Origin: a virus
IMG/VR virus record: IMGVR_UViG_3300027816_000051
Span: 186,001 to 250,000 of that record
Strand: one strand, 5' to 3'
DNA: 64,000 nucleotides
The position numbers and the translations under genes were made by a program. A model generated the notes under the pieces. It was not told the origin of the DNA and made no database searches. It saw nothing but the letters and a program-made list of their open reading frames with translations. Shown here in pieces: positions 48,043-63,858 of the stretch (positions within the stretch are counted from its first letter, which is position 1; each line of letters opens with the position of its first letter).

Positions 48043-48081
48043 TTTTTTATATCTATTTTGCCAACTTGATAACACCAACAA

Positions 48082-48276
48082 CTTCTCCTTCGAGCAACAG
48101 CGCATGGTTGGAAATTAGATTGGCGGTTTTAGCAACACCTAAAGCATTTAGCAACTTCTCCTTCGAGCAATTGCGCATGAGGGAAATTAGATTGGCGGTT
48201 TTAGCAACACCTAAAGCATTTAGCAACTTCTCCTTCGAGCAATTGCGCATGAGGGAAATTAGATTGGCGGTTTTAG
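48082..48276. repeat. Three tandem ~72-bp repeats, each with one inverted box
   Basis: Units start at 48082 (73 bp), 48155 (72 bp) and 48227 (about 50 bp matching, then diverging). Each contains TTCGAGCAATTGCGCATGAG, AAATTAGATTGGCGGTTTTA and CACCTAAAGCATTTAGC. Both strands are open through the array but without a good start codon, so I do not call a gene. The 47981-48479 gap holds this array plus boxes at 48302 and 48381. Confidence 0.85.
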
Positions 48277-48429
48277 TCCGTGTCGGCGCATTTGCAACAA
48301 ACTCGCCAAACAATATCTAACAGCGCAGCCCGGGTGAAATTCTGTTCCCAAATTTTTTCTTACTTTTTTTATTCGTTCCCGCCAAACAACATTCCCGATG
48401 GTTCACGGGGTTCGGAAAATTTCACACAC

Positions 48430-49992: not shown

Positions 49993-50610
49993 ATGAAAAA
50001 AGTTTTTTATTTATTACCACTCGTGGTATTCGTCACAATCGGAGCGGTCCTTTCATTTACCACCGAGGGTCAAACAATCGTTCAACAGATAAAACCAAAT
50101 AAGGTTATCTACATACAACCAATGGGTGATGTGAAACAAGAGTATTTGGAATTGGTAGAAAAGACCGTGGAATCTTTTTATGGTTTTGAATGTATTGTAA
50201 ATCCTAAGGACCCTTTAACCAATAATCTTTTGGCCGAAAGTAAAACAAGGTATTCTGCCAATAAGATACTAAGACAATATAGAGGGAAAGATAACTATCT
50301 AATTTTAACCGAGAAGGATATTGCAACACCAAGTCGTGGATATCCTGAATGGGGTGTGTTAGGATTGGGTTACAGACCTGGTAGTGTATGTGTGGTATCA
50401 ACGTTCAGAATGAAACGTAATGTTAGTGTGGATGTAATTAAGGAGAGAATAAAAAAAGTGTCCATACATGAAGTTGGACACAATTTAGGTTTGGACCACT
50501 GTACAAATCATCCTGAATGTTTAATGAATGATGCCAATGGTACAATCAAACAAGTTGATAGAGAAAAGATGTGGTTGTGTGATAGATGTAAACAGATTAT
50601 TGGTATGTAA
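49993..50610 (+). CDS. Archaemetzincin-type zinc metalloprotease, exported
   Basis: 205 residues. N-terminal signal/anchor KKVFYLLPLVVFVTIGAVLS. Catalytic region HEVGHNLGLDHCTNHPECLM ... CDRC: H-E-x2-H-x2-G, G-x3-C, a second Cys followed by x-Met, 17 residues, C-x2-C. This is the archaemetzincin (AmzA/AMZ) signature, with 5 instead of 4 residues between the first two Cys. Binds a catalytic and a structural zinc. Exported form suggests action in the periplasm. Faces the L,D-transpeptidase-like gene tail to tail (2-nt gap). Confidence 0.88.
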   Translation: MKKVFYLLPLVVFVTIGAVLSFTTEGQTIVQQIKPNKVIYIQPMGDVKQEYLELVEKTVESFYGFECIVNPKDPLTNNLLAESKTRYSANKILRQYRGKDNYLILTEKDIATPSRGYPEWGVLGLGYRPGSVCVVSTFRMKRNVSVDVIKERIKKVSIHEVGHNLGLDHCTNHPECLMNDANGTIKQVDREKMWLCDRCKQIIGM

Positions 50611-50612
50611 CC

Positions 50613-52196
50613 TTAGGTTGATACCATCTGAATTTTATATGTCCTTGCAATCTGTTCGTAATTGTTCTTATTGATATTTTTAAAGACCGACCTCTTATAT
50701 ACAACTTTGTTGGTTTGACTATCTCGGATTGGTCCTTGGAAATTCCAAACAATTAAATCTTTTTTAGTGGTTGGGTCTTCTATGGTCATACCAACTTCTC
50801 CGTCTATATAACTAAGACCTTTAACACGGAATTGCATTACCATATCATCCTCAACATTTGCTTCGGCTTTAAAGTTTGATAGTACATTGGATAATACCTT
50901 TTTGATAGATTCACTAATAATACTTTCAGCCATGGTTGAAGTTTCATCATTTCCACTCAATTGTTGGGCTAACATCATAGGACTTTTACAAACTTCACCA
51001 TCACCACCCAATTGTTCGAAATATGTTGGTGCGTTTTGAACGAGATAACTTGTTCCTTTATCACCCATTGCAAATACTCTTGCACCTTTGGCTAATTTTT
51101 GAACCCTTGGGTCTTCAATGAATTTAGCGGGAACCCCAACACATCCATAACTTTGATTCGCATTTGCGATTAATTTAATTGAGTTCAAATATTCTTTTGG
51201 TACCTTACCCGCAGATAAGTCGGCTTTTAATACGTTTCTTAAATCTTCACTGGCTGTTAGTCTCCCTTCAATATTGGGAATACCGTGAATCGCGGCAGCC
51301 ATTTGTTTACCCCCTTGGTCTTTCAAATTGAATACATTTTTACCTTTACCAGTATATCCCGTATTACTACCTAAACTTGATATGTTATAAATGCCCTTTG
51401 CTAAAAAACGTTCTTTGTAGTGGTCAACAACAAAATAAGCAGCATCGGCTATACATATTTTTGATGACTCATCCCATCTTCTTCTTGAGTCTTTTACACA
51501 GGATTCTTTTGTTGTAAAATTACTTGCGGTACAAAGACGAGGAGACGCTTCTAATTTTTGACCTTTTGCGTCATCACCGGGTACCGGACTATTTTTACAC
51601 CAATCCGCGTGAGTATAACTTTTACTATCTGATATTGATTTTTGTTCATTAGCACCATCAACAACTTGGGTGTGAAGTACGTATTTACTACCTGTATCAA
51701 AAAGATATATCAAATTGTACTTTGGGTCGTAAACGAAAAACGGTTTGTCGTTTAATTTTCTTTTTTCAATGTATGTTAATTCAGCATCGATTCTTGGGGT
51801 ATAGTTATATTTTGTACCTACAGTTTCGGATTTCTTTTCCAATTCTGATTTTTGTTTAGCAACTGGATTTACAACAATTGGTTTGGTTTGTAGATTGTCT
51901 TGATATCCAGCATAACCTCCTTGTTGACCAAGTCTACCCGTATTTAAACCCGTAAATTTCTTCACAGGTTCCACCGGTTTTGTTGAACCGAATACTTTTG
52001 TTTTGATTGCTTCTTTTCCCGTACCGGTGGCTAATCTATATGTTTTTTGGTTTTTTAATTTATAATAGTAGTTGTCACCATCTTTCATGTAATCGTACTT
52101 ACCATCATAATTGGTGACATAGGTTTTCTGTTCGTTGATAACTGATTCGACAATATTAACTAAATCCGACTCAGTGAGTCTTATTACTTTTCCCAT
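50613..52196 (-). CDS. Tagged L,D-transpeptidase (YkuD-like) domain protein
   Basis: 527 residues. Residues 1-22 (MGKVIRLTESDLVNIVESVI then NE) are the tag helix, ending INE|Q. The middle has an L,D-transpeptidase-type active-site pattern: AAIHGIPNIEGRL and later NQSYGCVGVPAKFIEDP (H-G ... S-x-G-C-V), the Cys being the expected nucleophile. Flanks hold QTKPIVVNPVAKQKSELEK linkers and a C-terminal beta region (MQFRVKGLSYIDGEVGMTI). A packaged murein-modifying enzyme is the inference. Confidence 0.75.
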   Translation of the reverse strand: MGKVIRLTESDLVNIVESVINEQKTYVTNYDGKYDYMKDGDNYYYKLKNQKTYRLATGTGKEAIKTKVFGSTKPVEPVKKFTGLNTGRLGQQGGYAGYQDNLQTKPIVVNPVAKQKSELEKKSETVGTKYNYTPRIDAELTYIEKRKLNDKPFFVYDPKYNLIYLFDTGSKYVLHTQVVDGANEQKSISDSKSYTHADWCKNSPVPGDDAKGQKLEASPRLCTASNFTTKESCVKDSRRRWDESSKICIADAAYFVVDHYKERFLAKGIYNISSLGSNTGYTGKGKNVFNLKDQGGKQMAAAIHGIPNIEGRLTASEDLRNVLKADLSAGKVPKEYLNSIKLIANANQSYGCVGVPAKFIEDPRVQKLAKGARVFAMGDKGTSYLVQNAPTYFEQLGGDGEVCKSPMMLAQQLSGNDETSTMAESIISESIKKVLSNVLSNFKAEANVEDDMVMQFRVKGLSYIDGEVGMTIEDPTTKKDLIVWNFQGPIRDSQTNKVVYKRSVFKNINKNNYEQIARTYKIQMVST

Positions 52197-52208
52197 GTTT
52201 TTTTTCTA

Positions 52209-52217
52209 TATAAATAT
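52209..52217 (-). promoter_or_regulatory. ATATTTATA late-type motif for 52196(-)
   Basis: ATATTTATA on the minus strand, 12 nt before the ATG. Confidence 0.55.
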
Positions 52218-52235
52218 CATAATCAGTCAGAAATT

Positions 52236-52266
52236 ATGAACCTCGTACGCCGGAACCGGGAATTTT
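52236..52266 (-). repeat. 31-bp GC-rich element, inverted copy of 21905-21935
   Basis: On the minus strand ATTCCCGGTTCCGG ... CGAGGTTCAT; 28 of 31 positions equal. Lies 39 nt upstream of the transpeptidase-like gene and between two divergent tagged genes. Confidence 0.65.
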
Positions 52267-52277
52267 CTTAAAACGTA

Positions 52278-52286
52278 ATATTTATT
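52278..52286 (+). promoter_or_regulatory. Late-type motif for 52303
   Basis: ATATTTATT, 16 nt before the ATG. Confidence 0.45.
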
Positions 52287-52302
52287 GGAAATAAAGATTA
52301 AT

Positions 52303-52581
52303 ATGAAAAAAAGTATAAAATTAACCGAAGCCGAATTGATAAAGGTGATAAAAAAGGTTATTAAAGAATCGAATCTTTCTGAATCCATGTTACCAGGAAC
52401 TTACGCCATGATGGCAGCAGAAGAAGCCGCATCTAAAGTTTCACAAATGTTAATGAACGAATATTCAAGATTTGCCGGACCTGAACAAAAAGGGTCTATT
52501 AAGAATATGTTTTTGAAAATGTTTTGTGAACGTCTTGAAAGTATCATCTTGAATAAAGATGAAGAAATGGGTCAAGATTAA
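52303..52581 (+). CDS. Small tagged protein
   Basis: 92 residues from ATG 52303. Tag MKKSIKLTEAELIKVIKKVI then KE|S (residues 1-22). The rest is a helical domain (AMMAAEEAASKVSQMLMNEY, KGSIKNMFLKMFCERLESII). No known domain. An ORF extending 18 nt upstream is less likely because the tag should be N-terminal. Confidence 0.75.
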   Translation: MKKSIKLTEAELIKVIKKVIKESNLSESMLPGTYAMMAAEEAASKVSQMLMNEYSRFAGPEQKGSIKNMFLKMFCERLESIILNKDEEMGQD

Positions 52582-52593
52582 AAAGAAATAATC

Positions 52594-52716
52594 ATGGCAA
52601 AGGCAAGAAAAGAACACCCCAAACCCAAAAGTAGAAAATCAGTAAAAAAGACATCTCGTAGAATCGAAAAGAACAATGAGATGTTGAGAAAGATTTGGGA
52701 AGAAATGCGTAAATAA
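52594..52716 (+). CDS. Tiny basic protein
   Basis: 40 residues: MAKARKEHPKPKSRKSVKKT then SRRIEKNNEMLRKIWEEMRK. Very basic N-terminus, helical C-terminus. A DNA- or RNA-binding peptide is plausible. Twelve nt after the preceding gene. Confidence 0.6.
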   Translation: MAKARKEHPKPKSRKSVKKTSRRIEKNNEMLRKIWEEMRK

Positions 52717-52731
52717 AAACTATTTGTAAAC

Positions 52732-53208
52732 ATGGGACAAAGAATTATCATATCAGAAGAAGATAAAAACCGTATAAAAGGTTTATACGAACAAACCAGT
52801 AGTAAACCATTTAATTTCTTCACATATAAGGACACCGTACACAATATGATTGAATCCATGACATCTTTAATGGAAAACATTGAGAGGTCAAAACTGTGTC
52901 AATCATTGGACAATCAACTCCAACCGACTTTTGGTTTGGTGGACGATTTGGTTGCAAGAATGGCGGCAGATAATGGTATGAGTGAAGGTGAGTCTATTAA
53001 GTATGTTTACGATACTTGGAAACAACAAAAAACAGGTGGTATGCCACTTTTAATGAAACTAATTGGTGGTAACGTAAGTGTCTCAAAAGAAATGGTGGAC
53101 AAATTATATGCCCACATTAGAACCAAACAAAACGGAGCGTTATTAACCTCCATCATATCGGACATATTTGGAAGTGCCGGTATTAAACAAATACCAATGT
53201 GTTCTTAA
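52732..53208 (+). CDS. Tagged protein, twin of 53222
   Basis: 158 residues. Tag MGQRIIISEEDKNRIKGLYE|Q (LYE cleavage signature). Remainder helical (MIESMTSLMENIERSKLCQS, LDNQLQPTFGLVDDLVARMA). Shares the first 20 residues with the next gene but not the rest, so the tag was duplicated or swapped separately from the body. Confidence 0.75.
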   Translation: MGQRIIISEEDKNRIKGLYEQTSSKPFNFFTYKDTVHNMIESMTSLMENIERSKLCQSLDNQLQPTFGLVDDLVARMAADNGMSEGESIKYVYDTWKQQKTGGMPLLMKLIGGNVSVSKEMVDKLYAHIRTKQNGALLTSIISDIFGSAGIKQIPMCS

Positions 53209-53209
53209 A

Positions 53210-53218
53210 ATATTTATA
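53210..53218 (+). promoter_or_regulatory. Late-type motif for 53222
   Basis: ATATTTATA ending only 3 nt before the ATG; a transcript from here would be leaderless or the motif acts elsewhere. Confidence 0.4.
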
Positions 53219-53221
53219 TAC

Positions 53222-53782
53222 ATGGGACAAAGAATTATCATATCCGAAGGGGACAGAAAACACATAAGAGGTTTGTACGAACAACCAACTTCAACACCTG
53301 AAGAAAACACACCATTTTTAGAGTGGGCGGAAAACGCTGAGATTACACCATTTATTGCACCAAACCCATATAGTGGTGGTGATTTGAAATTAGGTGTACA
53401 AATTAAAAGTTCAACCGGTGAGGATTTATCTAAAATAAGTCAAACCGCAAACCAAAAGACAATCATAAACCTAATTGAAAGAATGGATATCATTACCGAA
53501 AACGGACAGGTTGTTCATACTTTCACAACCGAAGAACAAGATGGAAGTGGTAGTGGTTTATTTAATTTCTCAACGTTTAAACCCACATATGAAATAATCG
53601 ATAACTCATTTGTTGTTTACACCACCATAAGTGAAAATTCTGAGGTGATTCAAAAACTTAAACAGTTTACAAATAAAACAAATAAATTCATTGTTACTGT
53701 TACCCCTCGTCTATCAAACGATTTATTAAAGACTGGTTCCAAATTATTCAAAACCAAGTCAAACATATTAATGGTAAACTAA
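53222..53782 (+). CDS. Tagged protein, twin of 52732
   Basis: 186 residues from ATG 53222. Tag MGQRIIISEGDRKHIRGLYE|Q. Body is beta-rich (GGDLKLGVQIKSSTGEDLSK, FKPTYEIIDNSFVVYTTISE, KFIVTVTPRLSNDLLKTGSK). No known domain. A start further upstream in frame would put 18 residues before the tag and is rejected. Confidence 0.75.
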   Translation: MGQRIIISEGDRKHIRGLYEQPTSTPEENTPFLEWAENAEITPFIAPNPYSGGDLKLGVQIKSSTGEDLSKISQTANQKTIINLIERMDIITENGQVVHTFTTEEQDGSGSGLFNFSTFKPTYEIIDNSFVVYTTISENSEVIQKLKQFTNKTNKFIVTVTPRLSNDLLKTGSKLFKTKSNILMVN

Positions 53783-53790
53783 TATTTATA
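53782..53790 (+). promoter_or_regulatory. Late-type motif for 53809
   Basis: ATATTTATA, about 18 nt before the ATG, overlapping the upstream stop codon. Confidence 0.5.
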
Positions 53791-53808
53791 AAAAAACATT
53801 AAAAAATT

Positions 53809-54135
53809 ATGGCAAACAAAATTGAATTAATTGATTTATTGACAAGACTATATGATTACATGGAAAATCGTGCGGATGCAGACGGTAGTTCAGAAGGGTA
53901 TGTTGCAAACGAGGAAATGGGTTTAATGGGTGAAATTGATGATATGTTACATGCGTTGGGTCAAAAAGGTTTTGGTAGTGATGTCAGAGCGTCCCTTGAT
54001 TCAAAATACAAATTCGGTGGTTTCAGTTTAAATGAAAACTCAAAAAACAGTAGTAAGAAAAAGGTTATTAAATTAAACGAATCAGAACTGATTAAGGTGA
54101 TTAAAAAAGTTATTAAAGAAAACTCAAAAATATGA
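53809..54135 (+). CDS. Small protein with the tag helix at its C-terminus
   Basis: 108 residues. Body helical and acidic (NKIELIDLLTRLYDYMENRA, GLMGEIDDMLHALGQKGFGS). The last 25 residues KKKVIKLNESELIKVIKKVI then KE|NSKI are a clear tag copy, nearly equal to the N-terminal tag of 52303. This is the only C-terminal example seen. ATGA overlap with the next gene. Confidence 0.75.
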   Translation: MANKIELIDLLTRLYDYMENRADADGSSEGYVANEEMGLMGEIDDMLHALGQKGFGSDVRASLDSKYKFGGFSLNENSKNSSKKKVIKLNESELIKVIKKVIKENSKI

Positions 54136-54794
54136 AACCAAAAACATTAAACGAAGAGATTAACCGTATTAAAAACATCATGGGTTTCATTAATGAATCC
54201 ATGGATGAACCTACTGGTGAAACTCAAGAATTTAACGGTAAAACCTATCCAAGTCACCACGGTAGTCCCTTTGATAGAGGTAGTGCTGATAGTTGGTATA
54301 GCCGTGGAACCAACCCACATAAAAACCATCCTGAATATTCCGAAGATTTAACCCCCGAGGAAATCGATGCGTATTATGCTGGATTCTATTGGAATGAGAG
54401 ACATGGTGACCATAAAGATTATGGTGATGATGACGATAGAATGAGAGATGATGATTTGGATGAATCTAATCATGAATTAAATGAAGATGAGGTAAACTAT
54501 AATATTAATCGAGCTATCCAATGTTTCTTAAATAAGAAAGGTATTAAAGATGATGCCGGTCAACCACTAAAGATTGATGGTTCTATTGGTAGATTACCTA
54601 ATTCAAAATCAGCTCAAGCCATTGCAAAATACCAAGAAAAACTTGGTGTTTATCCTGTGGATGGTGTTTGGGGTCCTGATACCATGGAAAAAATGCCACC
54701 GAAAGATTTGGCGATGTATAAAGATTGTAAATCTGAATATGGTGACATATTCGATAAGGGTCTCCACATGTTGGGACTCGACGAAGAAAAATAA
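54132..54794 (+). CDS. Tagged peptidoglycan-binding-domain protein
   Basis: 220 residues. Tag-like helix MKPKTLNEEINRIKNIMGFI then NE|S. Acidic, His/Asp-rich middle (EFNGKTYPSHHGSPFDRGSA; DHKDYGDDDDRMRDDDLDES). C-terminal 80 residues fit PG_binding_1: CFLNKKGIKDDAGQPLKIDG-SIGRL, SAQAIAKYQEKLGVYPVDGV-WGP. Such domains bind cell-wall peptides. Terminator follows. Confidence 0.75.
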   Translation: MKPKTLNEEINRIKNIMGFINESMDEPTGETQEFNGKTYPSHHGSPFDRGSADSWYSRGTNPHKNHPEYSEDLTPEEIDAYYAGFYWNERHGDHKDYGDDDDRMRDDDLDESNHELNEDEVNYNINRAIQCFLNKKGIKDDAGQPLKIDGSIGRLPNSKSAQAIAKYQEKLGVYPVDGVWGPDTMEKMPPKDLAMYKDCKSEYGDIFDKGLHMLGLDEEK

Positions 54795-54799
54795 AATTG

Positions 54800-54824
54800 A
54801 AACCCTCCACTCGGAGGGTTTTTT
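54800..54824 (+). terminator. Terminator after 54132
   Basis: AACCCTCC AC TC GGAGGGTT hairpin followed by six T. Confidence 0.9.
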
Positions 54825-54834
54825 ATTTGTAAAA

Positions 54835-54843
54835 CTATTTATG
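54835..54843 (+). promoter_or_regulatory. Late-type motif for 54849
   Basis: CTATTTATG, 5 nt before the ATG; a weaker match placed as in 53222. Confidence 0.35.
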
Positions 54844-54848
54844 GTGAG

Positions 54849-56000
54849 ATGAAAATAATTATTTCAGAATCACAATTCATAAAACTTAATCAATCAATAT
54901 CACAAGAAAGTGAATTGAATGAGAACCTATTGAGGTATTTTATGGGTGGTTATAAATCCGCAAAAGATTTCGCGAAACTATTAAGAACAAATAAAACGAT
55001 TTCATCAGAAATTCAAAACGTATTCAAGGACCCCGTCATGTATGGGAAATTTAATTTAGTTGGTGTTAAAACAGTAGACGATTTCGCAAAATTAATTGAG
55101 TCTAATAGATATACACCAAAATTGAAAGGTCAGTTTGAACTTTTTATTTTAAAATCCCCGAAAGTTTATCCAAATCTAGTGGATATTTCCGCAAATTCTT
55201 TAGTGAAGAACAAAACGTTTTTAGAAAAATTTAGACCAGAGATGATGCAAGGTGAATCGGAATTTAGAATACAATTAAAAAAATCACGATACAACGATTA
55301 TGCTATAAATAAAATTGTTGAGAAAACTAAACATCTAATCAAAAAATCAACAAATCAATTTACATCAGCATTAGCACCAATTCAAGCCGAAATCGGGACA
55401 TTAAAACCCGATTATGTAAAACTTTTTGGTATTGAGAAGTATGATAACTTGGTATCAGCACTATTGACTAATAAAATAAATCAGACTCAATTCATCAATA
55501 CTTTAAGAAGAACAACCGGTAATACCAAAAAAGTTGGTAGTAATATGGTTAAAGTGTTTAGGGCGGGACCTAAGAAAGATAATTTTTTCTATGTTAGTCC
55601 TAGTAAAAAATATGTTACAAAAAACTATGCGTCAAATAATCCAAACGCTGTTCAACCTATGTATGTTAATTTGGGTAGAACTTTAGATTTAACTCGTTTA
55701 GACCCAAGAGCGGTGAAGATGGACTCTTTTGTAAAATATTTAAAAGATTCGGGTGTAAAATTCACAAAAGAAGAAGAAATTAAATTATTAGGTAAATTCC
55801 TCAAACCACAAAGTAAAACATCATTTGGAAAAAGTTACCATGACGTACAACTGTGGCACATAATTAACACATCACCCGAAATCGCGAGTGCAGCATCAAG
55901 AAGTGGTTTTAATTCAATTAAACAATTTGAAACATCATCATTCGCACCAGATGCGTGGAATAAAGGTGACTTTTCATATTTTATTTTGAAACAACCTTAA
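54849..56000 (+). CDS. Tagged ADP-ribosyltransferase-like protein
   Basis: 383 residues. Tag-like helix MKIIISESQFIKLNQSISQE then SELNE|N. The middle is helical (IQLKKSRYNDYAINKIVEKT). The C-terminal 160 residues have the order seen in ART-fold toxins of the PolyVal type: MVKVFRAGPKKDNFFYVSPS-KKYVTKNYA, PMYVNLGRTLDLTRLDP and RSGFNSIKQFETSSFAPDAW ... YFILKQP (R...Y-S ... G-F-x-x-I ... E). T4 packages an ART (Alt) in its head, which fits the tag. Fold is inferred from pattern only. Confidence 0.6.
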   Translation: MKIIISESQFIKLNQSISQESELNENLLRYFMGGYKSAKDFAKLLRTNKTISSEIQNVFKDPVMYGKFNLVGVKTVDDFAKLIESNRYTPKLKGQFELFILKSPKVYPNLVDISANSLVKNKTFLEKFRPEMMQGESEFRIQLKKSRYNDYAINKIVEKTKHLIKKSTNQFTSALAPIQAEIGTLKPDYVKLFGIEKYDNLVSALLTNKINQTQFINTLRRTTGNTKKVGSNMVKVFRAGPKKDNFFYVSPSKKYVTKNYASNNPNAVQPMYVNLGRTLDLTRLDPRAVKMDSFVKYLKDSGVKFTKEEEIKLLGKFLKPQSKTSFGKSYHDVQLWHIINTSPEIASAASRSGFNSIKQFETSSFAPDAWNKGDFSYFILKQP

Positions 56001-56007
56001 TCTTATT

Positions 56008-56091
56008 TTATTTGTTTTTATTGTATTGGTCAAAAAAGACCATTCCCCATCCGATAAAGACAACCCCTAAAATAATATACGGTAAAATCAT
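56008..56091 (-). CDS. Possible tiny membrane peptide
   Basis: About 20-27 residues from ATG 56091 on the minus strand: MILPYIILGVVFIGWGM then a hydrophobic stretch. The 3' end is uncertain. The 56001-56233 space otherwise holds only AT-rich sequence and the late-type motif of 56234. Confidence 0.3.
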   Translation of the reverse strand: MILPYIILGVVFIGWGMVFFDQYNKNK

Positions 56092-56208
56092 AACATTTGT
56101 TTTTACATAAGATATCAATATTATTTTAATAAACAAAACAATTCTCAATCTACGTAATTAAGAAACAATAAAAAGACCGTCTTTGAAAGATTTTTTTTGT
56201 TTTACCTA

Positions 56209-56217
56209 ATATTTATT
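56209..56217 (+). promoter_or_regulatory. Late-type motif for 56234
   Basis: ATATTTATT, 16 nt before the ATG. Confidence 0.5.
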
Positions 56218-56233
56218 AGAAAAGAAAATTATC

Positions 56234-56764
56234 ATGTATAAAAATTTTAGAGTTTCAGAAGAGGAGAAAAAACAAATTCTTGAAATGCACCAATCAAATG
56301 GATATAACGCCGCAAGTAATTTAATTAACGAACAAGGTGGACAAGACCCCGCTTGGATTAAACAATCCGACTCAAATCTTAATTTTACTTCAAAAGCAAA
56401 AATGGGAATTGAGGATGGAACTCAGGCGACTTATGTGGCTGGTGGGTCGGGAGACGACAGTTTTGTAATTATTATCCCAAAAGGAAGTAAATTTAAAGTA
56501 TCTCCAAGTGGTTCATTCCTTTTGTCAATAGGATATCTTGTGAGTAAAACCGCACTATTTCAAAATGGACTTCAACCCGCAACACTTTTCACTGATAATT
56601 TAGCAGTGTCAAAAGCACTTCATAGTGGTAAATTAAATGCAAGGGCGGTTAATATTGCAGGAACTGTTGATGGAAATATAATTTATGAGGGGGGTTCAAC
56701 AGCGTTTAGATTACCTAACACTGGTGAAGCTTTATCTCAGAGAATTCAAAAATCTTTTGCATAA
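56234..56764 (+). CDS. Tagged protein with longer leader
   Basis: 176 residues. Leader MYKNFRVSEEEKKQILEMHQ then SNGYNAASNLINE|Q (33 residues), a longer form with the same SEEE-K-x2-I core and INE|Q end. Body beta-rich (GDDSFVIIIPKGSKFKVSPS, GTVDGNIIYEGGSTAFRLPN). No domain recognised. Confidence 0.7.
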   Translation: MYKNFRVSEEEKKQILEMHQSNGYNAASNLINEQGGQDPAWIKQSDSNLNFTSKAKMGIEDGTQATYVAGGSGDDSFVIIIPKGSKFKVSPSGSFLLSIGYLVSKTALFQNGLQPATLFTDNLAVSKALHSGKLNARAVNIAGTVDGNIIYEGGSTAFRLPNTGEALSQRIQKSFA

Positions 56765-56786
56765 GTAAAAACATTTATTAAATATA

Positions 56787-56815
56787 AAAGGGGAGTTAAA
56801 CTCCCCTTTTTTTTA
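56787..56815. terminator. Bidirectional terminator
   Basis: AAAAGGGGAGTT / AACTCCCCTTTT perfect stem between converging genes 56234(+) and 56813(-). Confidence 0.95.
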
Positions 56816-57355
56816 TTTTACCAATATCATAAAATTATAGGTCTTATCACTGTAATTCTGTGAGAAAAAAACACCAACCGTTTTTGAAGACGGATTTGTT
56901 AAATCGGAAAACAAATCAGAATCTAACGACATAACATCTAATAGATAATCACAAAACTTTAATTCTTTATTTTCAAAGTGCGCAACATACCCATACTCAC
57001 TGAACAATCCGTATGTTCCCCATGTAAATCCTTGAGATAAAGGTAAACCATTTAAATTGGATACTGTGAGATAATCACTAATATCACAACTGAAGGTCAC
57101 CTCATTTACACCGTTTTCACTTCTTAAGTTATTAATTGACGTTAGAACACTTTGAATAACTAATTGTTGGTTGAGACCATATTCGGTGATTGGGGATGTC
57201 TTATCTTCTTGTAAAGGTATAATCTTAATCGACCAATCACCGTTATCCACATATGTAATAATATCTGATTTAAATCTTTTCTGAATATCAGAAGTTTGAC
57301 CAAAAGAGTTTAGTACCATTACCAAACTAACACACAAAACAACTACATTTTTCAT
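56813..57355 (-). CDS. Exported hypothetical protein
   Basis: 180 residues. Signal peptide MKNVVVLCVSLVMVLNSFGQ with likely cleavage after FGQ. Mature part KRFKSDIITYVDNGDWSIKI and SNLNGLPLSQGFTWGTYGLF; no domain known. Untagged and driven by a Bacteroidota-type promoter, unlike its neighbours. Confidence 0.75.
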   Translation of the reverse strand: MKNVVVLCVSLVMVLNSFGQTSDIQKRFKSDIITYVDNGDWSIKIIPLQEDKTSPITEYGLNQQLVIQSVLTSINNLRSENGVNEVTFSCDISDYLTVSNLNGLPLSQGFTWGTYGLFSEYGYVAHFENKELKFCDYLLDVMSLDSDLFSDLTNPSSKTVGVFFSQNYSDKTYNFMILVK

Positions 57356-57377
57356 AACTTTTGTTTTAATATTTGAA

Positions 57378-57408
57378 CAAAGTTATATATATTTTTAATA
57401 TATCCAAA
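57378..57408 (-). promoter_or_regulatory. Bacteroidota-type promoter for 57355(-)
   Basis: Minus strand TTTGG at 57408-57404 and TAACTTTG at 57385-57378. Confidence 0.85.
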
Positions 57409-57464
57409 TTTTTTTTGAAATATTTTTAAAAAAAAATAATCATGGGTGTCTAATATATTTCTTG

Positions 57465-57473
57465 ATATTTATA
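57465..57473 (+). promoter_or_regulatory. Late-type motif for 57492
   Basis: ATATTTATA, 18 nt before the ATG. Confidence 0.55.
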
Positions 57474-57491
57474 TTATAAAGAAGAAAATTC

Positions 57492-58784
57492 ATGAGAAAA
57501 GTAATACGATTAACAGAATCGGACTTAGTGGAGGTTGTTAAAAATATTTTATTAGAACAAAATTATTCAGAGATACAAGGAACCACTGACCCTACACCAA
57601 TTGCAAAACTTTCGGTTTTAACTGATGCTGGTCTACCGGCTGATAATAATAATTTTAGGGGGAGATGGGTTTTAGAACAACCAAACATAGGTAAAACTTT
57701 TAGTGAAACAAAAAATTTAAGTCTATTTAGAAATTTAACACCAAAATCACCCGCTGGTGGTGAGAATTATATTGAGATGATGGTACAAAAATTTATACCT
57801 AATGAACTAAATCCTGATAAAACAATTAAAAAGAAAGGTTATCCCGATACGAGTACCCCACCTGTTGTAGAATCTTTAACTAATAGTGGTTCAAAAACAT
57901 TTAATGTTAAATACAAAGACCCCGATGGTAAACATACTTGGAGTCTCATTAGGATAGTAGCATCAGGTAATGGTTTGTTAGCCTTATCTAGAGCGTTATT
58001 AGAAGCTCAAGGAACACCAAATAAAATTACAATTGGTATGTCACAAACTAAAAGGGCTAGCGGTAGTTATGTATATAATGCGGCAAAAATTGGTAATATC
58101 ACACCAACGTTGAATCTAATATCGAATATGGTAACCGCATCCATTATTACTAAGAGTGGGTTACTTTCTCCAACATTAAAACAATACGTCAGTGGTGATA
58201 TGGTTAGTATTGGTACATATTTTAACAGGTCTAACGAAGACATTGCAAAATTAATCGCGAATTCGTTATACTTTTTTGATACATTTTTTATTCCCGAAAA
58301 CGAAATTCAGGTTTTCAGAAAAAAAACAGATTCGTCAGGAAAGTTACTTTTACCAAACTATAATTCTCAACCTTTTTTAGATTTGATAAACACAATGCCA
58401 GTGTTTAATGACATCCAAGGGTTGGTGGATGGACAAGGTGGATACCAAAAATGGAAAAATGTTGAACCAGAGGTTATAAAATTATATGACAAATATAATG
58501 AATTAATTAAAAATGCTGTTGTTGAACAATACAAGAAAAGATTATTAGCATTTTTTACTGATGTTTATAAAGACGCAAATCAAGCAAATCAACTTGTAAG
58601 TTCGACACAATTTAGGTCTGCTAGTATAAAAATTGAGGGTGCATTTAACAACGCGGTCGAAGGTGTGAAATACACAGGTACGGTAAAAATTGATAATGCA
58701 ACATCAAAAACAACGGCTAACACCTATGAAGTCGGTAAATCAAAACCTATTACAAATACCCCAAAACAACCTAACCAAAAATAA
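57492..58784 (+). CDS. Large tagged protein
   Basis: 430 residues. Tag MRKVIRLTESDLVEVVKNIL then LE|Q, nearly identical to the tag of 52196(-). Body: RGRWVLEQPNIGKTFSETKN, HTWSLIRIVASGNGLLALSR, TPTLNLISNMVTASIITKSG, YFFDTFFIPENEIQVFRKKT. Alpha-beta, no domain recognised. A second INE/ILE-like site is not obvious, so cleavage would remove only the tag. Confidence 0.75.
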   Translation: MRKVIRLTESDLVEVVKNILLEQNYSEIQGTTDPTPIAKLSVLTDAGLPADNNNFRGRWVLEQPNIGKTFSETKNLSLFRNLTPKSPAGGENYIEMMVQKFIPNELNPDKTIKKKGYPDTSTPPVVESLTNSGSKTFNVKYKDPDGKHTWSLIRIVASGNGLLALSRALLEAQGTPNKITIGMSQTKRASGSYVYNAAKIGNITPTLNLISNMVTASIITKSGLLSPTLKQYVSGDMVSIGTYFNRSNEDIAKLIANSLYFFDTFFIPENEIQVFRKKTDSSGKLLLPNYNSQPFLDLINTMPVFNDIQGLVDGQGGYQKWKNVEPEVIKLYDKYNELIKNAVVEQYKKRLLAFFTDVYKDANQANQLVSSTQFRSASIKIEGAFNNAVEGVKYTGTVKIDNATSKTTANTYEVGKSKPITNTPKQPNQK

Positions 58785-58812
58785 AAAAAGGGAGTTTAAA
58801 CTCCCTTTTGTT
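58785..58812. terminator. Bidirectional terminator
   Basis: AAAAGGGAGTTT / AAACTCCCTTTT stem between converging genes. Confidence 0.95.
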
Positions 58813-58814
58813 TT

Positions 58815-59255
58815 TTATAAACCGGCTTCCCAAGTTATAAGATGGTCATCTTGGGGTAAAGAAACTTTCACAGAGTCCTGTCCAATAAATTTAATGTAAC
58901 CATTTAACTTATCACCGATAATTTGAATGGTTATGGTATTCATGTCGTCATTTTTGTAGTATTGTGAAACTTTATAACCACGACATTCACCTTTTAGGTT
59001 CATAACAATCACGGAATCTGGTTTGATATCCATGGGTGTTTTACGTCTCACCAAAATACGGTCGGCATAAATCAATGGGTCAGTTATTCTTTCTTCAAGA
59101 TTATCATCCTCCATTGGGGTTATCTTCAACCCATTCTTGATTTCAACCAACTTAATTGGATAAATCAAATCCACCGATGAATCGGTTTCGTTTTCTTGTC
59201 CAAACAATACCACTGAAGACAAGATGAAGACGGCGATTAATGATAATTTTTTCAT
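58815..59255 (-). CDS. Exported hypothetical protein
   Basis: 146 residues. Signal peptide MKKLSLIAVFILSSVVLFGQ. Mature: VDLIYPIKLVEIKNGLKITP, CRGYKVSQYYKNDDMNTITI. Resembles the other exported protein in promoter and layout. Function unknown. Confidence 0.75.
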   Translation of the reverse strand: MKKLSLIAVFILSSVVLFGQENETDSSVDLIYPIKLVEIKNGLKITPMEDDNLEERITDPLIYADRILVRRKTPMDIKPDSVIVMNLKGECRGYKVSQYYKNDDMNTITIQIIGDKLNGYIKFIGQDSVKVSLPQDDHLITWEAGL

Positions 59256-59277
59256 GACTTTAATTAATTTGTTGATT

Positions 59278-59309
59278 CAAAGGTATGGCGACTTTTAGAA
59301 TATTCCAAA
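59278..59309 (-). promoter_or_regulatory. Bacteroidota-type promoter for 59255(-)
   Basis: Minus strand TTTGG at 59309-59305 and TACCTTTG at 59285-59278. Confidence 0.85.
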
Positions 59310-59378
59310 TTTTTTTCAAATATTTTTAAAAAAAAATCGTAACTAATTCAAAATCAACTTATTAAATTTGAAAATATT

Positions 59379-59717
59379 TTACCAAAATAGTTGTATACAT
59401 ATCATTGCCACTGCTAAAATCAAGGTAATTACGGTCTTTAAAGTCATAACCTCGGAAAATAACCACATAGACATAAAGGTGAAAACAATCATTCCTGACG
59501 CAAAACCTATAAGTCTCGCTGGCCATAACTGAAACCCAAAATATGTTACAATAAGTCGAACTGATTCTAAGGTCAGTAACATTGCGGGTACCCCAAAAAT
59601 AAAAAGACTAATTATTTTGTTATCGTTCATCCATTTATATTTCAAAGGTCCCTGATATTGTATAAATGTTAAAATGTGAGCACAAATAGCATAGACTAGT
59701 CCTAAAATTAAATTCAT
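59379..59717 (-). CDS. Four-helix membrane protein
   Basis: 112 residues with four hydrophobic segments (LILGLVYAICAHILTFIQY; IISLFIFGVPAMLLTLESV; LIGFASGMIVFTFMSMWLF; TVITLILAVAMICIQLFW). Size and topology like a small multidrug-resistance or EamA-half protein, but key residues are not visible. Role unknown. Confidence 0.65.
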   Translation of the reverse strand: MNLILGLVYAICAHILTFIQYQGPLKYKWMNDNKIISLFIFGVPAMLLTLESVRLIVTYFGFQLWPARLIGFASGMIVFTFMSMWLFSEVMTLKTVITLILAVAMICIQLFW

Positions 59718-59776
59718 GTATTAAAGATACGAATTATTTCTATCAAATCAAAATATAAAAAATATTTTAAAATTTT

Positions 59777-59808
59777 TTTGGATATTCCAAAAATATGTTT
59801 TATGTTTG
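59777..59808 (+). promoter_or_regulatory. Bacteroidota-type promoter for 59813
   Basis: TTTGG from 59777 and TATGTTTG at 59801-59808; the ATG follows after 4 nt. Confidence 0.85.
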
Positions 59809-59812
59809 TGGT

Positions 59813-60484
59813 ATGAAAAGATTGATTCTGATATTATTATTGGTGAAGTCACAAATTGTTGTCTCTCAAACAAATCGTATCTCACAAGACTCTATTAATA
59901 TCTATTTTCAAAATATTGTCAACGAGTATAGGGTTAACAATAACCTAAGTAGTTTATCTATTGATACCACATTAAGTCCTTTTACAAAAAATTGGTCGGA
60001 GTACATGTTTAAACAAAATTATTGTGGACATGGTGTTGGCGACGAATCATTTGAAAATCGAGCAATTAATTTTGTATCTATAAGAGAACTTTATTGTGTT
60101 GAAAACGTGGCGGGTCCGTGGGATTTTACCAAAGACTTACCATATGATGTTGAAGACCCAAGTTACACATATTATACTAAAATTGGATTGGATGGTCTCG
60201 ATTACAAATACAAATTAACCAGCACCGAAATACACACTTTATTGGATGTTGAAAATAAAATAGGTGAAGGTGTAAACACCAACAAAAATATTGCAGTTTT
60301 CGTTTTTTATCTATGGAAAAACTCACCATCTCACAACGAAGCGTTATTAGATTATCAAACAACTAAATTCTATGTTTCCATAACATATGTTGGTACAAAA
60401 ATAACAGCGTCGTATTTAGCCACAAGTTCCCCGAAACCAATAAGTAAAAAAAGACAGGGATGGTTAAGTAAATTATGTCGTTAG
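59813..60484 (+). CDS. CAP (SCP/PR-1) domain protein, exported
   Basis: 223 residues from ATG 59813. Signal peptide MKRLILILLLVKSQIVVSQ. CAP elements in order: NIYFQNIVNEYRVNNNLSSL, the first His in NYCGHGVGDESFENRA, YCVENVAGP (G/E-N) and FYLWKNSPSHNEALLDYQTT with the second His, then KFYVSITYVG. CAP proteins are secreted; bacterial ones are poorly understood. Basic C-terminus. Confidence 0.8.
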   Translation: MKRLILILLLVKSQIVVSQTNRISQDSINIYFQNIVNEYRVNNNLSSLSIDTTLSPFTKNWSEYMFKQNYCGHGVGDESFENRAINFVSIRELYCVENVAGPWDFTKDLPYDVEDPSYTYYTKIGLDGLDYKYKLTSTEIHTLLDVENKIGEGVNTNKNIAVFVFYLWKNSPSHNEALLDYQTTKFYVSITYVGTKITASYLATSSPKPISKKRQGWLSKLCR

Positions 60485-60504
60485 ATTTATAACAATTAAA
60501 TGAG

Positions 60505-60513
60505 ATATTTATA
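60505..60513 (+). promoter_or_regulatory. Late-type motif for 60526
   Basis: ATATTTATA, 12 nt before the ATG. Confidence 0.5.
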
Positions 60514-60525
60514 AATAAAAAAGTC

Positions 60526-60987
60526 ATGACCCAAATTATAGTAACAGAAACGCAGTTAAAGAACCTCACAAGAAGATTAAACGAAGATTCTATGGATAGT
60601 AAGTATAGAATGGAATGTAAAGCCGACGTTGATTATTATAAAGTAATGTACAACGGTATGGAAATTGAATATGTATATCCATTAAATATTAACGTAAATT
60701 TTGACATCGATTTAGAGGGAAGAAGTTATGGTATTAAAAGTGTATCCGTATATAATATCGTTGGTCCATCTGAAGTAGAAATGGAGATAGAATACTACCC
60801 TGAAAATAGTGATGATTCAGTAGATGAAACCGTTGTTGTGCCACTAAATTGGGATAATGTTGTAATAGATAAGGATGAGAATTTGGGTTATATTGGTATT
60901 GGTGATATTATACAAATTTCATTGAAAAATGATGAGAGTGGTAAAATCGTTTGTGATACCATTACAGTAAGTAGTTTCTCTATATAA
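60526..60987 (+). CDS. Tagged beta-rich protein
   Basis: 153 residues. Tag-like MTQIIVTETQLKNLTRRLNE|D (LNE). Body beta-rich and acidic (MEIEYVYPLNINVNFDIDLE, GPSEVEMEIEYYPENSDDSV). No domain recognised. Confidence 0.7.
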   Translation: MTQIIVTETQLKNLTRRLNEDSMDSKYRMECKADVDYYKVMYNGMEIEYVYPLNINVNFDIDLEGRSYGIKSVSVYNIVGPSEVEMEIEYYPENSDDSVDETVVVPLNWDNVVIDKDENLGYIGIGDIIQISLKNDESGKIVCDTITVSSFSI

Positions 60988-61118
60988 TCTTTACATTTTT
61001 TTAAAGTAATCGTATACTTATAATAGACCTTGTGGTTGAAGTCGAAGTGTCCTCGTGATATTTGAGTTGGAATTGATACCAACGAATTCGGGTTCAAATA
61101 CAAAAAAATATAAGGAAT

Positions 61119-61913
61119 ATGAATTACACAACCTCAAACAGGTATGCTGTACCTCAATCTTTTATTACAAGAAGTAAACAAAGATTAAAACAGCACGTAG
61201 ACACCGTATACATGAATAACGGTGATGAGTTCGAAATCGAACTTTACAATCCCACACAAAATAAAGTTTTAGCTAAGATTGAACTGAATGGTAAATCCAT
61301 CGGTAATGGTATCATAGTTCGTCCTGGTGAAAGAGTTTTCCTCGAAAGGTACTTAGACGAAGCGAGAAAGTTTTTGTTTGAAACTTATGTTGTAAATGGG
61401 AATAATGAAGAAGTCCAAAAATCCATAGAGAATAATGGTGACGTTGTTGTCAGATTTTACGATGAAGTATCAACATACCCGTATTATGGTAGTATTCCCA
61501 CTTGGAATAGTAATTGGAATAATAGTGGAACCCTTAGTTATCCACCGGGTGTAAGAACCTTTACAACAAATAATATGAATTCTATTAGTTCTTCATCATC
61601 TAATTATTCATATGTGAATGATACCATCACCAGTAGTATTGATGTGAACCTTAACATTCCAAAATTAAAAAAGAGTAAAGAAAGACACATTGAAACTGGT
61701 AGAGTTGAGAAAGGTTCTGAGTCAAACCAAACTTTTGTTTATGACAACAGTAATTTTAACTCTTTTCCATGTAAAACAAATTGGTGGAAAATAAAACCAA
61801 ATTCAACCAAAGTGATGGTTCGGGAAGATTTAACTGTTTACTGTACTGAATGTGGCTCAAAAAGAAAAAAAGATTCTCATAAATTTTGTCCCCATTGCGG
61901 AACAAAATATTAA
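61119..61913 (+). CDS. Protein with C-terminal zinc ribbon
   Basis: 264 residues. N-terminal beta domain (GDEFEIELYNPTQNKVLAKI, ELNGKSIGNGIIVRPGERVF, LERYLDEARKFLFETY), Ser/Asn-rich linker, then VYCTECGSKRKKDSHKFCPH-CGTKY: C-x2-C...C-x2-C zinc ribbon. Pattern suggests a virion or capsid-decorating protein with a metal knob, but no family is certain. Not tagged. Confidence 0.7.
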   Translation: MNYTTSNRYAVPQSFITRSKQRLKQHVDTVYMNNGDEFEIELYNPTQNKVLAKIELNGKSIGNGIIVRPGERVFLERYLDEARKFLFETYVVNGNNEEVQKSIENNGDVVVRFYDEVSTYPYYGSIPTWNSNWNNSGTLSYPPGVRTFTTNNMNSISSSSSNYSYVNDTITSSIDVNLNIPKLKKSKERHIETGRVEKGSESNQTFVYDNSNFNSFPCKTNWWKIKPNSTKVMVREDLTVYCTECGSKRKKDSHKFCPHCGTKY

Positions 61914-61937
61914 AATAAACTAATCACAAGGTCTATG

Positions 61938-61965
61938 AAGGGGTTACAGGTTGTAACCCTTTCTT
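61938..61965. terminator. Terminator between converging genes
   Basis: AGGGGTTACA / TGTAACCCT stem with GGT loop. Confidence 0.8.
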
Positions 61966-62257
61966 ATTTAAAATCAACAGGTATTGATTTTATATCACTA
62001 ATCGTGATATTTTTTAAACCCAACGTACCGTGTGAAATTGGTGCGAATACACCTTGGGTATGTAGGAATTGAAAATAATAATATAGGTACGTTGGGTCAA
62101 TTTTGTTAAGGTATTCTTCTTTTACTTTAACACCAATGTTCTCTTCATAAAACTCCTTTGAGGGTTTACCGACACTTTGTTCGGAACCTTTTCTTTGTAA
62201 CCAAAAATCGGCTTCGGGAAAATTGGTTTTAAATATACATACATCTCCTATTCTCAT
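61964..62257 (-). CDS. HsdS-like target-recognition fragment
   Basis: 97 residues: MRIGDVCIFKTNFPEADFWL then DPTYLYYYFQFLHTQGVFAP, ISHGTLGLKNITISDIKSIP. This is the pattern of the C-terminal half of a type I restriction specificity subunit target-recognition domain (YLYYYL ... G-T/S ... L-x2-I-x2-IP-V). A full HsdS has two such domains and spacer helices; here only about half of one. ATGA overlap with the gene upstream. Confidence 0.55.
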   Translation of the reverse strand: MRIGDVCIFKTNFPEADFWLQRKGSEQSVGKPSKEFYEENIGVKVKEEYLNKIDPTYLYYYFQFLHTQGVFAPISHGTLGLKNITISDIKSIPVDFK

Positions 62258-63858
62258 AATTCTGAAAGTCTATCGTTTAAATAACTGTTGAAATCGTTAT
62301 CATCAATATCTGGTGACCATCTGTCGTCAATATAGAATCTTGGTTTTTCATAGTACTCACCTAGTAATTCATGAAAAACACATTGGGCATCATCGTCACA
62401 TTTTTCAAAAAACTCATCCATTTCATCTTCACCATAACCCATGTTATCTATTATGTTTTTTAAATTAATTCGTATGGTTGCACCTCTATCATTTAGACTT
62501 AAAACATCTCCGTAATCACTAAGTGCGTTTCGTAGTTGCTTCATTGCATAATCATAGTAAGATGAATTTGCGGAATCGGAAAACGCCGAACCTAATGCAC
62601 CTCGAACTTCATAGTTATCGTCATACTCTTCTATTAATTCATCTATAGACATGTTTGGTTCAAATTCTTCACCTGCTCTATCTCTAAGATAATCAATGAT
62701 TGTTCTTTTATTATCTTCGTCTGCATGGTATTCTAACGCAGATTTCCAATCATCATAATACCCATCAGTTAATTCCCATATATCACCTGATAATAAAGTC
62801 TCGATAAAACCTATTTTTTTTGTACGACCACTGGCATCTCTCGATTGTCTAATGGTCCAATCCCCCTCAACGTAATATGGAACAGAATCCGGTTCAATAT
62901 CCCAATCAAAAACCGTATCGGGTTCTTGAAAATCTTGGGTTATACCCATCTTCTGTAGTTTTCTTTTTAGTTTACGAGTGTTGAATATTTCAGGTTTAGA
63001 TTGATATATCTGTGTAATTTGTTCATCAGATAAATCGGCAATACTGAAATCATCACCACTATTGTATTCACTACCAAAACCTTTTACGATGTCTGTATTT
63101 AAAATTAAATCAACAACATAGGGATAAAATTCTGGTTTTGGTTTACTATTTTTAGGACCTTTTAATTGATAAACAATCCCATCCTCATCACCAATCGCGG
63201 CGGTTAAATGACTTTTGTTGACTGTGTAATTATCTTTAAGTTTTTTTGTTTCTCTTAACGAGAATATCGTGTTACTTGAATTTGTTCTACCACAGTGACC
63301 CATGCGGTTACATTCTTCTCTTGAATCATTCGTATTTAAATCCACCCAATAGAAACCAACACCGTCTTTATTTCTGTAGTCTTTTACGATGTCGTTTTTT
63401 TCAACATAATTAATATCTCCTTCTCCTGAAGTTAACTCTTGGTGCCACTTTCTTGATTCATTGTAAAGTTGACCAAAATTTAAGTTTTTATTATCACCCA
63501 AATTTCCGTTTAAACCAATGCGTATCCAGTCCATTATTGATACGATATTACTTCTCATACCTCTAACACCAGCACTTTTATTTATTGCGTCGATACCCAT
63601 TTTTCTTCTATACTCAGGGTCTTTTCTAAAAGTTTCTCTGGCTTGTTTTTCTTCATCTTCAGGTACCGCACTCATCATATGTTCTAATCTTTGTTGTGCG
63701 AATACATCGATTAATTTATTGGCTAATATGATTGATAACGGACCCCCCAATTCTTCTATTTGGTCAGCATTATCTTGACTCAAACCAAGTTTGTTTACCA
63801 ATATATCTTTCCTATTGGCTTCAAGAATTAATTGCTCAATTAAATTTATTGTCTTCAT
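62254..63858 (-). CDS. Large protein with MGHCG core and short tag
   Basis: 534 residues. N-terminus MKTINLIEQLILE|A: short tag-like helix with an ILE|A site. Central core DSREECNRMGHCGRTNSSNT, FSLRETKKLKDNYTVNKSHL and IVYQLKGPKNSKP: the M-G-H-C, S-L-R and Q-x-K-G-x-x-N elements recall the core of PcfJ-like phage/plasmid proteins. C-terminal half is acidic (ELIEEYDDNYEVRGALGSAF). Function unknown. Confidence 0.7.
   Translation of the reverse strand: MKTINLIEQLILEANRKDILVNKLGLSQDNADQIEELGGPLSIILANKLIDVFAQQRLEHMMSAVPEDEEKQARETFRKDPEYRRKMGIDAINKSAGVRGMRSNIVSIMDWIRIGLNGNLGDNKNLNFGQLYNESRKWHQELTSGEGDINYVEKNDIVKDYRNKDGVGFYWVDLNTNDSREECNRMGHCGRTNSSNTIFSLRETKKLKDNYTVNKSHLTAAIGDEDGIVYQLKGPKNSKPKPEFYPYVVDLILNTDIVKGFGSEYNSGDDFSIADLSDEQITQIYQSKPEIFNTRKLKRKLQKMGITQDFQEPDTVFDWDIEPDSVPYYVEGDWTIRQSRDASGRTKKIGFIETLLSGDIWELTDGYYDDWKSALEYHADEDNKRTIIDYLRDRAGEEFEPNMSIDELIEEYDDNYEVRGALGSAFSDSANSSYYDYAMKQLRNALSDYGDVLSLNDRGATIRINLKNIIDNMGYGEDEMDEFFEKCDDDAQCVFHELLGEYYEKPRFYIDDRWSPDIDDNDFNSYLNDRLSEL

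Follow-up and report, generated by a model that had tools for sequence, protein, structure and literature searches.

In phage T4, a short capsid-targeting sequence (CTS) directs cargo proteins into the head, and the prohead protease gp21 cuts after L/I-x-E (PMC9026906); T4 Alt is additionally processed at its C terminus (PMC9026906). Here we describe a set of leader peptides which, by analogy, most likely form a CTS-like system with a far larger and exchangeable set of cargo. They are encoded in a 64,000-nucleotide stretch of viral DNA (the window), corresponding to positions 186,001 to 250,000 of IMG/VR virus record IMGVR_UViG_3300027816_000051 (G000, 288,260 bases; the window is G000:186001-250000). 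The likeness to the T4 internal proteins IPI-IPIII and Alt lies in the short N-terminal leader on unrelated and variable proteins, in an S77 protease predicted to cleave behind [IL]-x-E and in the same order of head genes. However, the T4 CTS measures 10 residues, whereas the leaders described here span 20-50 residues and have no demonstrated homology to it; only the leader of the reverse-strand gene starting at 63858 resembles the CTS by eye. Moreover, T4 carries a handful of cargo proteins, in contrast to the 184 cargo families found here in lake records behind several interchangeable leader families, and the recognisable cargo here is largely wall-active. With respect to T4, what is new is most likely a much enlarged version of a known trick.

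Two further systems invite comparison. In the giant phages phiKZ and SPN3US, too, a gp21-like protease cleaves many head proteins behind x-E (PMC5694885), but there the motif reads A-x-E or S/A-x-E, with several propeptides longer than 100 residues, as opposed to [ILV]-x-E and short leaders here. The polyvalent proteins of phages and conjugative elements form another variable arsenal, one believed to be delivered alongside the DNA (PMC5512222), though they combine many domains in one polypeptide, whereas the proteins considered here mostly have one or two domains and each has its own leader.

We consider it quite probable, on evidence drawn from sequence, that the leaders are T4-style capsid-targeting propeptides removed by a prohead protease. 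As short, mostly N-terminal and probably helical segments, they would bind the assembling prohead core, after which the S77 prohead protease would cut behind [ILV]-x-E and free the cargo body inside the head; the virion would then contain these bodies, presumably to be ejected with the DNA into the bacterium, where they may act as effectors. Several non-homologous leaders would thus share one job and be exchanged among cargo genes, many of which would be expressed from a late-type promoter, TATTTATA, common to the head genes. The first-pass annotation had proposed a modular signal that loads effector proteins into the head for injection. The modular propeptide with its prohead-protease site has gained indirect support from the S77 gene, the INE site of the capsid protein, the leader swaps and the common promoter, while injection and effector function are steps that we infer. 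These leaders could act as loading tags for the head of a Bacteroidota phage, as the CTS does in T4, and they would supply a rule for telling from sequence which of the many uncharacterised proteins of giant Bacteroidota phages are carried in the virion, and at which residue each mature protein is predicted to begin. The broader proposition, on which we are evenly divided, is that of a delivery code common to giant lake and rumen Bacteroidota phages, by which core-recognised and protease-removed leader families bring hundreds of exchangeable proteins into the head, to be delivered when the phage infects; among this cargo would be cell-wall enzymes that resemble effectors of type VI secretion.

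The carriers of these short interchangeable labels on hundreds of unrelated proteins are most likely a group of giant, uncultured viruses that infect Bacteroidota. A gene for ribosomal protein bS21 lies among the head genes of G000 on the reverse strand (G000:28129-28287), and bS21 is found in 26 of 31 tag-bearing genomes, G000 included, vs. none of 10 S77-positive controls; it adjoins the head genes in G000 and in most of the other bS21-positive genomes. Lake phages encoding bS21 are predicted to infect Bacteroidota (Chen et al. 2022, PMC9723584), and they have in common with G000 a giant genome, a reverse-strand bS21 gene among the head genes and an origin in lake records, although that study is not known to describe the leaders or their cargo. 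The bS21 gene among the head genes supports the placement of G000 with this clade and, through it, the Bacteroidota host named in the first-pass annotation (PMC9723584).

Leader families, their conservation and their exchange

Eleven genes of the window had been singled out as beginning with a shared helix that ends in [IL]-x-E, and this ending is present at the given start of all 11. Their bodies are indeed unrelated, but the single shared helix has given way to several leader families. Class A reads MKKVIRLTESDLTRIVKRVINE↓Q, the arrow marking the end of the leader. Class B reads MKNLYIINEEEKNRILNLHESATKRQYLSE↓Q or has a short form ending GLYE↓Q. A second leader family, RILNLHESATKRQYLSE↓Q, has the same ending as the main family MKKVIRLTESDLTRIVKRVINE↓Q. 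Class C, class D and a T4-like 13-mer account for the remaining genes. The tagged genes and the promoter elements placed before two of them are as follows.

507-514, + strand: TATTTATA late-type promoter element before 528
528-761, + strand: small tagged gene; class A leader 528-593 (INE↓A), MKKVVKLSIKDLENIVKRTINE↓A, matching the class A profile; TATTTATA 21 nt upstream
50613-52196, − strand: L,D-transpeptidase-like tagged cargo; class A leader 52131-52196, INE↓Q
52209-52216, − strand: TATTTATA element before 52196(−)
52303-52581, + strand: small tagged cargo; class A leader 52303-52368, IKE↓S; upstream TAATATTTATT, one mismatch to TATTTATA
52732-53208, + strand: tagged cargo; short class B leader 52732-52791, LYE↓Q; body homologue with a different leader on L073
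53222-53782, + strand: tagged cargo; short class B leader 53222-53281, LYE↓Q; TATTTATA 11 nt upstream
53809-54135, + strand: 108-residue protein with a C-terminal class A copy, 54055-54132 (E 4.3e-12), overlooked in the first pass; TATTTATA 26 nt upstream
54132-54794, + strand: peptidoglycan-binding tagged cargo; class C leader 54132-54197, INE↓S
54849-56000, + strand: tagged cargo with no assigned function; class D leader 54849-54923, LNE↓N
56234-56764, + strand: tagged cargo; class B leader 56234-56332, INE↓Q (E 7.6e-6)
57492-58784, + strand: tagged cargo; class A leader 57492-57557, LLE↓Q (E 1.1e-16); homologue L070:2529-3800; TATTTATA 26 nt upstream
60526-60987, + strand: tagged cargo; class D leader 60526-60585, LNE↓D; homologue L070:5502-5993; TATTTATA 20 nt upstream
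62254-63858, − strand: cargo candidate; 13-residue leader 63820-63858, T4-like by sequence resemblance, MKTINLIEQLILE↓A (ILE↓A)

Conservation of the leaders centres on their end. When IMG/VR was scanned with four window copies, 251 relatives were recovered, and once similar bodies were collapsed class A was seen to precede 148 body-nonredundant proteins, with E at position 22 in 141 and I, L or V at position 20 in 142. Counted over unique leaders, position 22 is E in 154 of 162, and 152 of these 154 have I, L, V or M two residues earlier; by comparison, this is true of 20% of body glutamates. Information content reaches 3.84 bits at E22 and 1.75 at Q23, then drops to 0.71 and 0.29, so that conservation ends at E↓Q, and in an alignment of 115 mostly unrelated cargo proteins only M1 and E22 are near-invariant. 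Class B and its longer relative, class B', both end in [ILV]-x-E as well. The first such E of class B lies at a variable distance from the helix core (mostly 3 to 18 residues), and [ILVM]xEQ occurs in 57 of 91 downstream segments vs. a shuffled mean of 3.5 and maximum of 12 (1000 shuffles). Probe peptides led to a further leader in giant phages, apparently from rumen records. Its 26 residues, MKKxIRLTESDLHRIVKESVNRILNE↓, place the E four residues later than in class A; this E is present in 92 of 102 leaders, and L, I, M or V stands two residues before it in 99 of 102. The E retains its motif across the spacer changes of class B and of the rumen leader; it tracks the end of the leader and not a fixed distance from its start.

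A tblastn search of 50,697 phage records with the class A consensus gave no match, whereas internal head proteins are retrieved by a probe of the T4-like CTS type, and classes A and B were not found in phages immuto, RM378 and Mel-JY01. Class A is present in one of 21 random large contigs, which also has S77. Among 84,980 bacterial and archaeal genomes the only match was an internal leader copy (L091:4617-5330) on an 11-kb contig of a Wolfebacteria metagenome-assembled genome, perhaps a phage contig binned there. Internal copies were also noted in four rumen proteins (L610, L598, L640, L639), each of whose open reading frames (ORFs) carries one N-terminal and one internal leader, and a 441-residue protein at G000:146760-148085 (L090:760-2085), likewise overlooked earlier, has leader-like stretches at both termini and in its interior. 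L333, L336, L344, L352 and others contain short ORFs that consist of a class B' leader plus a few residues, near the A3 match; perhaps these encode a small core protein from which the leader derives.

The leaders behave as modules. In the lake set, 319 tagged ORFs resolve into 184 body families, eight of which occur with more than one leader class. The body of 56234 follows a class B leader, whereas its homologue L070:1245-1805 (body E 7.7e-67) follows one of class A; class B-tagged proteins of L254 and L257 match the body of 50613-52196 (class A) at 44-48% identity over 316-378 residues; and homologues of the peptidoglycan-binding body of 54132 (class C) carry class A and class B' leaders. 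Such swaps, together with the cassette-like character of the genes and an AT-rich motif upstream of the leaders that is also common to tagged genes, are what one would expect if the leader were a recombination cassette, a common 5' sequence maintained by gene exchange and encoding a functionless peptide. Invariant leader residues are nevertheless written in several synonymous codons (Leu7 as TTA, CTA, CTT, CTC or TTG, and Ser10 in five codons), and selection therefore acts on the peptide; we regard the cassette as very improbable. Behind the leader, several cargo families (50613-52196, L254, L257, L268, L236, L327) contain a second module of about 45 residues, with Y-x-Y-x-K followed by AIKTKIF.

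Head genes, capsid site and promoters

The head module of G000 presents TerL, portal, S77 protease, an acidic scaffold-like protein and capsid genes in T4 order. A search for a gp21-like prohead protease had been suggested in the first-pass annotation, and such a gene is present: the S77 (gp21-type) protease matches PF03420 over the cut-off (E 2.9e-23) and the PHROG head maturation protease (1.8e-40). The capsid propeptide of G000 ends in LINE↓S, and at the corresponding site all of 30 tag-bearing records, of which some are near-duplicates, have INE or LNE followed by A or S; for the rumen phages, no capsid protein was found within the stretches examined. S77 itself was detected in 19 of 26 and 19 of 32 tag-bearing records, and in 13 of 13 of those of at least 250 kb, G000 included.

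The promoters, too, divide the window genes. Of the 12 leader genes (the 11 plus 53809), 6 have the element TATTTATA no more than 100 nt upstream, vs. 0 of 82 other window genes (p = 1.1e-6); the motif emerged from the same data that supplied part of the test material, so that the window test is the cleaner of the two without being fully independent. It also precedes TerL, portal, scaffold and two more head-region genes, standing before the scaffold gene in 16 of 30 records and before 28 of 91 tagged rumen genes. The late promoter of T4 is TATAAATA, which TATTTATA resembles, and this points to probable late expression of the leader genes together with the head genes. The Bacteroidota-type promoter is TTG-N17-21-TAnnTTTG. 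It lies within 100 nt upstream of 26 of the 82 other window genes vs. 0 of the 12 leader genes. These 26, which are probably early genes, span window positions 4198-59255, most of them on the reverse strand at 26-50 kb.

A late-type promoter common to head-region genes would also suit leaders that target another part of the virion (tail, baseplate or portal vertex) or an assembly site, with E↓Q as an uncut boundary or linker, and several cargo matches in PHROGs do resemble tail-associated lysins or tape-measure domains. That the end motif is identical to the capsid propeptide site argues against this reading, as does the fact that the motif follows the changes of the spacer, which a plain docking helix does not predict. 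We think docking elsewhere in the virion unlikely.

Several observations weigh against capsid-targeting propeptides. The base rate of S77 is 13 of 21 in random large contigs, for which reason its co-occurrence with the tag, though expected if the idea is right, is weak evidence and was rejected as proof. The large tagged rumen records G089 and G092 gave no S77 match; these are perhaps fragments, or their protease has perhaps diverged. The exact TATTTATA motif is missing from 6 of the 12 leader genes of the window and stands before the capsid gene in none of 30 records. Lastly, the class A copy of ORF 53809-54135 lies at the C terminus, the only convincing C-terminal leader in the lake set.

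Cargo proteins and neighbouring genes

Peptidoglycan-active proteins make up most of the recognisable lake cargo. Among 115 lake representatives, Pfam matches comprise PG_binding_1 (5), PG_binding_3, M23, YkuD, Tlde1, TseH, DUF6861 and Annexin; L387:2001-3596 combines M23 with peptidoglycan binding, and the tagged protein L268:3001-3867 matches both YkuD and Tlde1. Phage heads may accordingly carry wall-active proteins similar to those of type VI secretion. Because most cargo is without a known domain, wall activity describes a recognisable minority. A Nudix hydrolase and zinc ribbons were all that was recognised in the 60 rumen representatives, and an apparent portal protein match on a tagged rumen protein proved to be its Nudix domain. 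That Nudix hydrolase is the single enzyme of nucleotide or DNA metabolism, by name, among the 115 lake and 60 rumen representatives. Tags on early enzymes had been held to speak against head loading; none was seen in the window, and the rumen phage offers this one tagged Nudix hydrolase. A search for anti-defence functions of the cargo with PADLOC gave no strong match.

Within the window, two of the three functions first assigned to cargo have found support. The L,D-transpeptidase-like call for 50613-52196 is supported by an H-G and S-x-G-C signature, in which His304, Cys352 and their neighbours are invariant in five homologues; the protein has no Pfam profile match of its own. Its C-terminal part, after an internal IISE↓S, is matched by separately tagged proteins in L237 and L240. 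A PDB search with this family returned repeat artefacts only, and a structure model of the family (pLDDT 51) was unusable. Peptidoglycan binding by 54132-54794 is likewise backed, by PG_binding_1 just under the cut-off (E 1.2e-4) and a PHROG endolysin (E 1.5e-5). The ADP-ribosyltransferase (ART)-like call for 54849-56000 found no such support: ART-PolyVal scored E 0.09, under the Pfam cut-off, the PDB yielded no match and a single-sequence structure model (pLDDT 43) was unusable.

Given that many recognisable cargo domains act on peptidoglycan, it is plausible that such proteins would be held inactive until lysis, and the leaders might then be regulatory or localisation tags in the infected cell (a degron, an inhibitor or an anchor holding wall-active enzymes at the membrane), removed by a host protease if they are cleaved at all. 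Yet most cargo has no wall-related domain, no hydrophobic stretch occurs in the leaders, host-type promoters instead serve the neighbouring genes whose products apparently bear Sec signal peptides, and the site fits the phage protease. Tags acting within the cell are, in our estimation, an unlikely explanation, and we favour propeptides that target the capsid.

The neighbours with Sec-signal-like N termini are interspersed with the cargo genes (49993-50610; 56813-57355 and 58815-59255, both on the reverse strand; 59795-60484) and include a HExxHxxGxxH metalloprotease-like protein and a CAP/SCP-like protein. At 48053-48320 there are tandem direct repeats, whose two strands encode KTANLISLMRNCSKEKLLNALGVA and EIRLAVLATPKAFSNFSFEQLRMR.

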